Source: Pseudomonadota bacterium (lineage in GTDB: Bacteria; Pseudomonadota; Gammaproteobacteria; Steroidobacterales; Steroidobacteraceae). From it: 64,000 bases of DNA. Each line of letters begins with the position of its first letter. The first letter of the stretch is position 1. Positions 55,734-61,454 of this stretch are shown one piece after another. The position numbers and the translations under genes were made by a program. The stretch lies in contig JAKARC010000006.1 in the NCBI GenBank assembly GCA_021822385.1, forward strand, positions 1 to 64,000, in the 5' to 3' direction. Below the pieces are notes generated by a model. It did no database searches and was not told the origin of the DNA. It saw only the letters and a list, made by a program, of their open reading frames with translations.

Positions 55734-56107
<374 letters not shown>

Positions 56108-56758: not shown

Positions 56759-57071
56759 CACCCGGGCGCCATTGCAACGACCGCGACGGCGGGGCATGGC
56801 CGCAGTCATCGCGAGCGGCGCCCGCCGCGGCGAGCGGCAGCGCCCGCGCCGGCATGAGGCGAACGGGCGAGGAGCCGCGCGGGCGTGGCACAAATGCGTC
56901 CCTAGTGCCGCGCTCGGTACCGCAATCGGGCCGCCGGCGCACGGGCTGGCGGCGGCGGCCGATAAGAACGTTTCACCAAAGCGCCTGCCGAGCAGTAGAC
57001 TGTGCGCGCCGCAGCGGGCCCGGCTGGCATTCCGAGCCTTCGCCTGCGTTATATTTTTGTTATGGGTCAAC
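56759..57071. other. Intergenic stretch upstream of the DUF1634-TSUP gene
   Basis: About 313 nt with no supported gene; the in-frame upstream part of track ORF 56772-58379 is Arg/Ala-rich and unlike the family. The right end is abruptly AT-rich (TTATATTTTTGTTATG) and likely contains the promoter. A TATATT -10-like box lies near 57050. Confidence 0.45.
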
Positions 57072-57087
57072 GTACAAAAGTTTGTAC
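57072..57087. promoter_or_regulatory. Palindromic operator candidate before the DUF1634-TSUP gene
   Basis: GTACAAA-AG-TTTGTAC is a perfect 7-bp inverted repeat with a 2-nt centre. It lies 17 nt upstream of ATG 57105 and just downstream of the AT-rich promoter-like stretch, which is a repressor-type position. A single GTACAAA half-site occurs on the minus strand directly before the start of the convergent UspA-type gene (59216-59222). Confidence 0.45.
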
Positions 57088-57104
57088 ATACTTCTGGTGT
57101 TAGG

Positions 57105-58379
57105 ATGTCGAACGTTACGATAGACAGCGAGCCGGTTCTCCCCAAGCCCGACGATGGCCTGATCCGCAAGACCGAGCTCATCATCAGCGGCGTGTTGCGT
57201 ATTGGTGTGCTGGCCAGCGTTGCGGTGATACTCGGCGGTGTCTTTTACTATTATGCGCTGCGCTTGCTCGGTCGCCTGCCGTCGGCGACCTTTCCGGATA
57301 CGCTGTTCGAGGTGGCCGCGGGCCTGAGGGCCGCGCAGCCGATGGCAATCATCACCGCCGGACTGCTGATCCTGCTCGCCACGCCGGTGTTGCGGGTCGC
57401 GGTGTCGATCATCGCCTTCACTATCGAGAAAGATCGCACCTACATTCTCATCACGGCGATCGTTCTTGCCATTCTGCTGTTCAGCATCTTCGGGATTGGA
57501 TCCTATCTGGGCCGACCCGGGCTCACGGATGCGCCGAACAGCACGGTCGGCGTCATGGTGTTCATCGCGCTGAGCAGCATGTTCGCCGGCTTTGTCGGTG
57601 CACTGGCCGGGCTCGGCGGCGGAGTGTTCATCGTACCGATCCTGACGCTGGTGTTTCACGTCTCGTTCGCCACGGCGATCGGCGCTTCAATTGTATCGGT
57701 GATTGCCACCTCCTCGGGTGCGGCTGCGGCCTATGTGCGTGACCGCATGACCAATCTGCGGGTCGGCATGTTCCTCGAGATCGCCACGACCTCAGGGGCG
57801 ATCTGCGGCGCGCTCATATCGTCGATGCTCGATGATACGGTGCTGTTCATCGTATTTGGCCTCATCCTGCTGTTCTCGGCGGTGCCGCTCGTGATGCGCC
57901 TCGGCGAGGAACTGCCGACCGGCGTGAAGAACCATAAATGGGCCGGCCGGCTGAAATTGCCGGGCACTTACTCGGATCAGCGCACGCACCAGGATGTCTC
58001 CTACCATGTGGCGCACGTGCGCATCGGCTTCGTCATGATGTATGTGGCGGGACTGATATCCGGCCTGCTCGGCATCGGCAGCGGTACGTTCAAGGTGCTG
58101 GCGATGGATACCGCCATGCGATTGCCGATGAAGGTTTCAACCACCACCAGCAATTTCATGATCGGGGTGACGGCGGCGGCCTCCGCCGGGATCTTCTTTC
58201 AGCGCGGGGACATCAACCCGATGATTGCAGCGCCGGTGGCCGTCGGGGTGTTGGGTGGCTCGATGCTCGGGGCGAAGACGCTCTCCCGCATGTCCAATGT
58301 TCACCTGAAGAAGGTGTTCGTGCCCATGATCCTGCTGGTGGCGCTCAGCATGCTCGCGCGCGGGCTCGGCTGGCTTTGA
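57105..58379 (+). CDS. DUF1634-TSUP fusion membrane transporter
   Basis: About 424 residues from ATG 57105 (MSNVTIDSEPVLPKPDDGLIRKTELIISGVLRIGVLASVAVILGGVFYYY). The first 135 residues fit DUF1634: three hydrophobic helices with AAQPMAIITAGLLILLATPVLRVAVSIIAFTIEKDRTYILITAIVLAILLFSI. The remainder is a TSUP (TauE/SafE) carrier: FAGFVGALAGLGGGVFIVPILTLVFHVSFATAIGASIVSVIATSSGAAAAYVRDRMTNLRVGMFLEIATTSGAICGALIS, then the second half with GLISGLLGIGSGTFKVLAMD. TSUP proteins export sulfite, sulfonates or small organic anions; the substrate here is unknown. The two domains are usually separate neighbouring genes. Nine to ten membrane helices are expected. Confidence 0.85.
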   Translation: MSNVTIDSEPVLPKPDDGLIRKTELIISGVLRIGVLASVAVILGGVFYYYALRLLGRLPSATFPDTLFEVAAGLRAAQPMAIITAGLLILLATPVLRVAVSIIAFTIEKDRTYILITAIVLAILLFSIFGIGSYLGRPGLTDAPNSTVGVMVFIALSSMFAGFVGALAGLGGGVFIVPILTLVFHVSFATAIGASIVSVIATSSGAAAAYVRDRMTNLRVGMFLEIATTSGAICGALISSMLDDTVLFIVFGLILLFSAVPLVMRLGEELPTGVKNHKWAGRLKLPGTYSDQRTHQDVSYHVAHVRIGFVMMYVAGLISGLLGIGSGTFKVLAMDTAMRLPMKVSTTTSNFMIGVTAAASAGIFFQRGDINPMIAAPVAVGVLGGSMLGAKTLSRMSNVHLKKVFVPMILLVALSMLARGLGWL

Positions 58380-58405: not shown

Positions 58406-59212
58406 TCAGCGCCGCATCATCAGCGGTAGCGCGCTCGACTGAATCAGCCGGCTCGAAGTGCCGGCCGACAGCCAGTTGAGCAGCTCCCCGCGGCGGTAGG
58501 CGCCCATGATCAGCCCGTCGGCCTGATAGGCGGTGGCGGCCTCGAGCAGAGCGGTTGCGGTCTTGCGGCCCTCGGAAGCTATGAGTCGATAGCCGGCCGC
58601 CGGCACGATGGGCGCAATGGTCGCGCGTGCCGCCGCGAGGGCGCTCTCGTCCTGATCAATAGCGACCACCTCGACCTGTTCGGCCACGGCGAGAAACGGC
58701 TGGAAGGCCGCAAGCGCCCGCCGCAGCGGCGCTATGTCGCGCCAGCCGATCATCAGGCGCCGCCCAAAGCTGCCGTCCCAGGTGGGCGGCACCATCACCA
58801 CCGGATGGCGAGCGCGTAACAAGGCGGCGCGCAGCCCCTCGCGATGGCCAACGGGTTGAGTATGGGGGGCAGCGAGCACAACCATGCTGGCCGTGCGTTG
58901 ATAATGGCGCATCACCCGCCATTGATCGCCCGTGTACAGATCGAATTGCGCCGAGATGCCGGTCGAGCGCGTCCATTGCGCCACCGTCGCGCGCAGCTTT
59001 TCGGTTTCCATCCGCTCGCGCTCGGCAAGGTGCTCGACCTCGTACTCGGACAGTTGTTCCTGCGAGGGCAGGATGATGGCGCGCGAACCGATCTCCACGT
59101 GGGCAAGGCGCAGCGGCTGGCCGAGACGCGCGCTCATCTGCTCGCCGATGCGCAGGCACTGCTCGGCGCCGGTGGTGGAGGCGAGCAGCACCAGGATGAA
59201 TTTGGATTCCAT
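58406..59212 (-). CDS. Tandem-domain universal stress protein (UspA family)
   Basis: 268 residues in two Usp-like halves: ILVLLASTTGAEQCLRIGEQMSARLGQPLRLAHVEIG at the start, and RLMIGWRDIAPLRRALAAFQPFLAVAEQVEVVAIDQ in the second. The C-terminal TATALLEAATAYQADGLIMGAYRRGELLNWLSAGTSSRLIQSSALPLMM holds the G-x2-G-x9-G(S/T)-like nucleotide loop in altered form (MGAYRRGELLNWLSAGTSS). It may bind nucleotide weakly or not at all. It is convergent with the DUF1634-TSUP gene (26 nt between stops). Cytoplasmic; role in stress is by family only. Confidence 0.8.
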   Translation of the reverse strand: MESKFILVLLASTTGAEQCLRIGEQMSARLGQPLRLAHVEIGSRAIILPSQEQLSEYEVEHLAERERMETEKLRATVAQWTRSTGISAQFDLYTGDQWRVMRHYQRTASMVVLAAPHTQPVGHREGLRAALLRARHPVVMVPPTWDGSFGRRLMIGWRDIAPLRRALAAFQPFLAVAEQVEVVAIDQDESALAAARATIAPIVPAAGYRLIASEGRKTATALLEAATAYQADGLIMGAYRRGELLNWLSAGTSSRLIQSSALPLMMRR

Positions 59213-59843
59213 GACTTTGTACCTTTTCGAATTGGAATACAGTCTCTAGCAGAGGACTGTACACAAGCATCTTATAACGAGGAAAGCGGCGATGTGCACT
59301 CGAGCTGCGGGTGGTCCGGGGCCGGCGCCCGGCGCCACCGCTTCTTAAGCCCCGTCGTGGGCACCGCGCCCCGCGGGTCCCGCAGTGCAGGGTGAACCAT
59401 GCGCCGCCGCGCATGTGCCCGGATGCGCAGACGCCATGTCTGCGCCGTGCCGGCGACGGCTTCCCGCACCCCTATGGGTACAGGTACGGATGGTCTCCCA
59501 AGCGCATGGGAGAGAATATTTCGGGCGAGTTCCTCCGGCGGAACTTGGGAGGAAACGCCATGCGGTCTCTCGGTTCAAGGAGCTGCCCGTTCCCCCACGG
59601 GCATGCACCCCCGGTGAACGCGGTCGTTGCATGGTTCTCGTCACTGCCCGGAACCGGCTATCGCGAGACGCTGCACAGTGGCAGCGACAACGATCGGAAG
59701 GCGACCTTTTCCTTCTGCGACCCTGCCGGGTTGCGGTGCGGCAGACTCGGGAACGCCCGTGCGCGGACCGTGCTGCAGGGTGCAGTCGCCGCGATGCGTG
59801 TGCGCGCGCCCCGGTTTAGCAACCGAGCATTCCGGATACGCCC
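59213..59843. other. Intergenic stretch between UspA-type and APH-kinase genes
   Basis: 631 nt. The left 60 nt are AT-rich and should contain the UspA-type promoter (minus strand). The rest holds overlapping ORFs without family resemblance (59311-59847, 59385-59819). An ATG at 59561 is preceded by GGGAGG and opens about 95 codons in frame with 59311-59847, but its translation is low-complexity and I do not call it. A hairpin AGTTCC-6 nt-GGAACT lies near 59530. Confidence 0.5.
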
Positions 59844-61454
59844 ATGACCCTCGAGTCGACCGCTAGTGCCGAGGCGTCCGGTGCGCTGCCGGTGCGGCTT
59901 GCCGGTTTACTCAATCCGCGGGCCTACCCGCACCCGCTCGTCAGGGTAAGCCTGCTGCAGACACCCCTCTCCTGGGTGCTTCTCGCCGGGGCATTTGCCT
60001 ACAAGATCAAGCGCCCGGTGCATTACGCGTTTCTCGATCAGCGCACGCTGCAGCGGCGCCGTGAGTTGTGCGAGGAGGAACTGCGGCTCAATCGGCGCTT
60101 CGCGCCGCAGCTGTACCAGGATGTCTGCTCGATCGTGGCGGCGTCCGGAGGAGTCGTCGTGCGCAGCGCCGCGGGCGCGGGCGAGACGGTCATCGAGTAT
60201 GCCGTGCGCATGCTGCGCTTCGGCGCGGCCGAGCGGCTCGACCGGCTGCTCGCCGAGGGTCGAATCGAGCCGGCAGCGCTTGCGGCTTTCGGTCGGGCGC
60301 TCGCCGTCCTGCATGCCACGTTGCCCGTGGTCACGGAGGATGTGCCCTGGGGTCGGCCGGAGCATGTCAGCACGATGCTGCTGCGCAATCTGGATGAGTG
60401 CGCCGCGGCGTCGAGCGTATTTGCAGCGGGTGCTGCGGTGATGGCACTGCGCGCGCGCCTCGAACAGCGCCTGTTTGTCGCGCGGCCCTGGATGGCCCTG
60501 CGCCGCACGAGCGGCCGGGTGCGTGAGTGTCATGGCGATTTGCACAGTCGCAACATCACGCGCTGGGCGGATCAATTGATTGCGTTCGATTGTCTGGAAT
60601 ACGAGCCGACGTTCCGCTGGATCGATGTGGCCGACGAGATCGCCTTTCTCGTAAGCGATCTGGCGGCTCGCCACTATGGCGTGCATGCGCACGCGTTCCG
60701 CAGCGCGTACCTCGAGCACAGCGGGGATTATCACGCGTGCCGGGTGCTTACATTATACGAGGCGCACCGCGCGCTGGTGCGCGCCAAGGTTGCCGCGCTT
60801 GCGGCGGCAAGCACACCGGCGGCAACTGCGCGCGCTGCGTGGCGCAAGGAGCACGCACTGCTGCTCGCGCACGCGCAGCGCGCCTTGTCCGAGCCGCATC
60901 CGCGGCTGGTCCTGATGAGTGGCCTGTCGGGTACGGGAAAGACTTGGCTTGCCCGGCAGCTGGCGGTACGGCTCGATGCGCTCCACATCCGCTCCGACGT
61001 GGAGCGCAAGCGCCGGGCAGGCATGATGCTGCTCGAGCGCTCCGGTGCCGGTGTCGCACAAGGAATGTACGCGAGCGACGCGAGCGCGGACGTCCACGAA
61101 GATATGGCGCGAGCGGCGCGCGATGCACTGATCGGCGGCGTCACAGTCATCATTGATGCGACGCTGCTGCGCCGAGCCGAGCGGCGACGCTTCGCCGATC
61201 TTGGCGCACAGCTCGGAATCAGGCCGTCCGTGGTGTGTTGTCAAGCACCTGTGCCGGTGCTGCGCGCGCGCCTGCTAACGCGCGCCGCGGCGGGAGCGGA
61301 TCCGTCGGAGGCGGATACGTCCGTGTTGGAATGGCAGCGGCTGCGCGCCGAACCTGTGGGTGAGGACGAGCCGCTTGATGTCGTGGTGGTCGACGTCGAG
61401 GATTCGCGCGTCGTTGACGACGTGCTCGAACGTCTACAGGTGGACAGGACCTGA
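59844..61454 (+). CDS. Aminoglycoside-phosphotransferase-like + P-loop kinase fusion
   Basis: 536 residues with two domains. The first (about 20-310) is an APH/choline-kinase-like fold: FAYKIKRPVHYAFLDQRTLQRRRELCEEELRLNRRF (substrate-lysine region), the catalytic loop CHGDLHSRNI with Asp232, and the metal Asp in RWIDVADEIAFL. The second (about 353-520) is a small-molecule kinase domain with Walker A SGLSGTGKTWLARQLA at 360-367, SDVERKR and VIIDATLLRRAERRRFADLG. The same fused architecture is widespread in proteobacteria, usually unstudied. The substrate is unknown; this is not evidence for drug resistance. Flanked by a long upstream gap and the convergent pirin gene. Confidence 0.84.
   Translation: MTLESTASAEASGALPVRLAGLLNPRAYPHPLVRVSLLQTPLSWVLLAGAFAYKIKRPVHYAFLDQRTLQRRRELCEEELRLNRRFAPQLYQDVCSIVAASGGVVVRSAAGAGETVIEYAVRMLRFGAAERLDRLLAEGRIEPAALAAFGRALAVLHATLPVVTEDVPWGRPEHVSTMLLRNLDECAAASSVFAAGAAVMALRARLEQRLFVARPWMALRRTSGRVRECHGDLHSRNITRWADQLIAFDCLEYEPTFRWIDVADEIAFLVSDLAARHYGVHAHAFRSAYLEHSGDYHACRVLTLYEAHRALVRAKVAALAAASTPAATARAAWRKEHALLLAHAQRALSEPHPRLVLMSGLSGTGKTWLARQLAVRLDALHIRSDVERKRRAGMMLLERSGAGVAQGMYASDASADVHEDMARAARDALIGGVTVIIDATLLRRAERRRFADLGAQLGIRPSVVCCQAPVPVLRARLLTRAAAGADPSEADTSVLEWQRLRAEPVGEDEPLDVVVVDVEDSRVVDDVLERLQVDRT

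Follow-up and report, generated by a model that had tools for sequence, protein, structure and literature searches.

Here, we show that a membrane carrier gene in a gammaproteobacterial genome is a real fusion of DUF1634 and TauE, two families already known as adjacent separate genes, and that the fused form reverses the operon order of its parts, a point absent from the original prediction. We propose that this TSUP carrier is probably a two-protein carrier made as one chain, with DUF1634 as the dedicated subunit of one TSUP subfamily. To our knowledge no function has been assigned to DUF1634, and we found no mention of the family in the literature searched; TSUP itself is a poorly understood family of anion carriers.

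A DUF1634-TauE fusion in reversed gene order

In the window, meaning the whole 64,000-nucleotide stretch of DNA that was analysed, the fused gene and its parts lie as follows:

57105..58379, plus strand: fused DUF1634-TauE membrane carrier gene, 424 aa, stop included (Pfam, ortholog alignment)
57183..57491, plus strand: DUF1634 part, residues 27-129 (Pfam, AlphaFold2 model, alignment)
57495..57545, plus strand: linker between the DUF1634 and TauE parts, residues 131-147 (AlphaFold2 model)
57567..58352, plus strand: TauE/TSUP part, residues 155-416 (Pfam, AlphaFold2 model, alignment)

The claim that one 424-residue chain carries both domains was borne out by Pfam matches well above their cut-offs, each spanning the whole or nearly the whole of its profile: DUF1634 (PF07843) scored 84.8 bits against a cut-off of 27.5 over the full profile (1-102), and TauE (PF01925) scored 160.2 bits against 32.6. 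DUF1634 was thus detected where it had been expected, within residues 1-135, and the start codon of the fused gene agrees with the ortholog alignment.

Of 58 genomes sampled from the window's genus, 24 carried the fused gene, complete or nearly so, in a single frame. It was also present in a second genus of the family, where four genomes carry it, one copy being broken by a run of N. Across many independent assemblies, with identities of 77-90%, the frame is free of stops, and DUF1634 precedes TauE in all fused copies of both genera. Searches of further genera in the family, of relatives at the level of the order, and of class and phylum samples turned up no fused gene. In the tree, the TauE parts of the fused proteins formed one clade (support 100/99), so that the sequences need only one origin of the fusion, in one gammaproteobacterial family, followed by its retention. 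Some genomes hold two copies of the fused gene, and several contigs (L062, L063, L065, L066, L067; G011, G008, G013, G860, G019) start or end inside it, which suggests that near-identical second copies collapsed in assembly. Two further candidates did not add to this distribution: a Flavobacteriaceae locus (L061) considered as a second fusion proved on inspection to be two genes, TauE then DUF1634, and a 424-aa frame (G692) that resembled DUF1634 weakly was matched by neither model built in the analysis.

The expectation that DUF1634 and TauE are usually neighbouring separate genes held across ~96 linked unfused pairs from several phyla of Bacteria. TauE lay upstream of DUF1634 every time, with no pair reversed and none fused, and the two genes abut or overlap in most pairs. 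This order was found in all 77 linked pairs of Bacteroidota (396 genomes), in eight plasmid-collection records (Bacillota, Cyanobacteriota, Acidobacteriota, Chloroflexota and Pseudomonadota), in nine gammaproteobacterial loci, in one further proteobacterial locus (L069) and, within the family to which the window belongs, in one genome (G1339) whose genes are unfused with TauE first. A genome of that family (L157) carries an ordinary TauE-then-DUF1634 pair of a type known from Enterobacter and Shinella plasmid records. Pairs such as Listeria monocytogenes NCTC7974 EL207_RS02815/RS02820 and Chroococcidiopsis thermalis CHRO_RS27590/RS27585 share both Pfam families with the fused chain, and the TauE parts of fused chain and two-gene pairs are 44-55% identical; the pairs, however, are two proteins with the TauE gene first, whereas the window has one chain in which DUF1634 comes first.

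Because loss of the stop codon in an ordinary pair would give TauE-DUF1634, the fusion is not a simple read-through, and the reversed order requires that the pair had been rearranged or duplicated, or that an ancestor had the genes the other way round; no unfused DUF1634-then-TauE ancestor was present among the linked pairs sampled. The same reasoning bears on whether the fusion could be an assembly or frame error of an ordinary gene pair. The data do come from MAGs, and a run of N interrupts the gene in one relative (G1354), but a stop-free single frame that recurs at the identities given above in many independent assemblies, in an order that read-through of a TauE-then-DUF1634 pair cannot yield, makes such an error barely conceivable. 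G1354 had also been considered as an unfused reversed intermediate and was rejected, as it is the fused gene carrying a run of N.

Proposed partnership and membrane orientation of the two parts

Beyond their linkage, the two families keep strict company. Of 396 Bacteroidota genomes, 50 matched DUF1634 strongly and 50 matched this TauE subfamily strongly, and the two sets are identical, although this correspondence overstates the evidence because the subfamily profile was seeded from copies adjoining DUF1634 and related genomes in the sample are not independent observations. Four of these 50 genomes had no TauE within ~5 kb of DUF1634 and carried a full-length subfamily member elsewhere in the genome; as they still possess both genes, the pairing is independent of linkage. 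The original argument that the fusion speaks for a partnership of DUF1634 and TauE is therefore supported, and is strengthened by the identical genome sets.

We propose that the TauE part, with the eight membrane helices of a TSUP protein, would form the transport path, and that DUF1634, with three membrane helices, would pack next to it, with a role in assembly, stability or gating of the carrier. Most bacteria make the two proteins from a TauE-then-DUF1634 gene pair; in one gammaproteobacterial family the parts were joined once, as DUF1634-TauE, and then kept. It could instead be that DUF1634 is a regulator or assembly factor needed transiently by TauE and that the fusion merely fixes its dose, as might be expected from a part of ~100 residues and three helices, small for a transport path, and from the two genes being unlinked in four Bacteroidota genomes. 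We consider this unlikely, given that the fusion has been retained in 28 genomes of one family and that most pairs are near-abutting or overlapping genes, as is typical of subunits made together. Contact between DUF1634 and TauE, a role for DUF1634 as partner and transport of anions by the joint protein would be features of the dedicated-subunit reading that we prefer.

An AlphaFold2 model of the fused chain, based on an alignment of 84 sequences (mean pLDDT 80.9, pTM 0.82), predicted three membrane helices in the DUF1634 part (15-54, 79-107 and 111-130) and eight in the TauE part, together with two half-helices (173-183 and 327-337), joined by a linker (131-147) that is mostly of low confidence (133-144 below 50). 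The model thus predicts the two repeats of four membrane helices that mark TSUP proteins, with one half-helix in each half. An even number of helices would place both ends of TauE on one side of the membrane and an odd number would place those of DUF1634 on opposite sides, so that, if these helix counts are right, only one fusion order could leave both parts natively oriented; from the order observed, the DUF1634 C-terminus and the TauE N-terminus are predicted to lie on the same side of the membrane. This reading opens the possibility, which we hold tentatively, that this branch of TSUP is an obligate carrier of TauE plus DUF1634 whose fusion order is reversed since no other order keeps both native orientations.

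Positive-inside charges were rejected as proof of topology: they do not decide it and, counted for each part by itself, lean against the orientation reading. Counts of K+R in loops for DUF1634 alone leaned toward N-in/C-out (about 5.4 vs 2.5) and for TauE alone toward N-in/C-in (about 12 vs 5-6), leanings that would be more in keeping with a TauE-DUF1634 order than with the one observed; in the whole fused chain, the N-in orientation of TauE was slightly favoured.

Sequence searches of the Protein Data Bank found no relative of TauE or DUF1634, and a fold search with the model returned no significant match. The only plausible fold match, noted for 57567-58352, was BacA/UppP (PDB 6fmt; Foldseek probability 0.87, TM-score by target 0.55), a weak match (E-value 0.45, 11% identity) that is not evidence of homology, though judging by the model TSUP may have an architecture in common with UppP.

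Gene neighbourhood and the upstream palindrome

Proposed substrates of TSUP members include sulfite, sulfolactate and further sulfur compounds (PMC8873060, PMC5840216), and TauE of Cupriavidus necator is described there as a proposed sulfite exporter (Weinitschke 2007, via PMC8873060 and PMC5840216). That protein and the chain in the window have the PF01925 family and eight predicted helices in common, and differ in the extra N-terminal DUF1634 part of the latter. The neighbour genes do not point to sulfur metabolism: those with Pfam matches in relatives are housekeeping genes (ribosomal protein L13, phospholipase D-like, TldD, ribulose-phosphate epimerase and BamE), and no sulfonate or sulfite genes were identified near the fused gene. 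Some unfused TauE/DUF1634 pairs adjoin genes for GntR or IclR regulators, which hints at regulated organic-anion transport and is not evidence for the fused gene.

Four features surround the presumed control of the fused gene and its convergent neighbour:

56994..57001, plus strand: AGTAGACT, invariant in 19 aligned leaders; contains TAGACT
57072..57087, no strand: unconserved palindrome GTACAAAAGTTTGTAC, within the leader presumed to be untranslated
58406..59212, minus strand: convergent Usp-domain gene, 268 aa (Pfam)
59216..59222, minus strand: GTACAAA 'half-site' (TTTGTAC on plus), 3 nt before the usp ORF

The palindrome, GTACAAA and TTTGTAC arms around AG, is present as described and ends 17 nt before the ATG of the fused gene; it had been proposed to define, with the half-site before the UspA-type gene, a small regulon. 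Exact AT-rich arms of 7 bp within a GC-rich genome do catch the eye, as does the single genomic occurrence of the exact 16-mer against about 0.0007 per genome expected from base composition. However, the palindrome is absent from all homologous loci, and the leaders of relatives are unrelated at its position although AGTAGACT, further upstream, is the only invariant block in the alignment of 19 leaders. A genome-wide scan for the palindrome with at most two mismatches gave three sites per strand, close to the two of a reversed-pattern control, and among bare 7-bp inverted repeats with a 2-nt spacer the palindrome is one of 14 within the 64-kb window. A site neither conserved before orthologs nor enriched in the genome does not bear out the regulon, and we regard a real operator here, even one specific to this lineage, as very improbable; the palindrome before the fused gene is probably due to chance.

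Position tells against an operator as well. AGTAGACT lies about 105 nt before the ATG, and the TAGACT within it is likely a -10 promoter element, with TAGAAT in a similar position and the same presumed role in a second clade. From this presumed -10, the transcript would start near 57008, and the palindrome would fall some 65-80 nt beyond that point. A T-rich tract directly upstream of AGTAGACT occurs in most relatives and is missing from the window. The palindrome was also rejected as an RNA hairpin, since the leader folded no better than shuffles (z 0.44), and no known RNA family was found in the leader of the fused gene.

Convergence of the fused gene and usp is conserved in about 22 loci (usp identity 65-79%), and the Usp match (PF00582) lies just over its cut-off (24.2 vs 24.0) and covers C-terminal residues 214-266 only. 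As for the half-site, GTACAAA does stand before this gene as predicted, and its part in a regulon falls away: the motif occurs in none of 22 aligned usp leaders of relatives, it overlaps the ribosome-binding region of usp, and relatives have (G)AGGTGCC, GAGGTGCC or similar at that position. By this alignment the half-site is an unconserved variant of the usp ribosome-binding region, and no regulatory sequence common to the fused gene and usp was found.

Elsewhere in the window, a tRNA-Ser (tga) at 55734-55823 explains spurious protein-like ORFs on both strands there, and in an ORF of 536 aa at 59844-61454 an APH-like kinase part shares a single chain with an AAA_33 (P-loop kinase) part.

Implications for TSUP carriers

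The single chain offers a convenient target for structural work because no relative of either part was found by sequence in the Protein Data Bank, and its reversed order yields a sharp prediction of membrane topology. Strict pairing across phyla, together with a natural fusion, leads to a specific hypothesis for a family of no known function, namely that DUF1634 would be a small membrane subunit of TSUP anion carriers.
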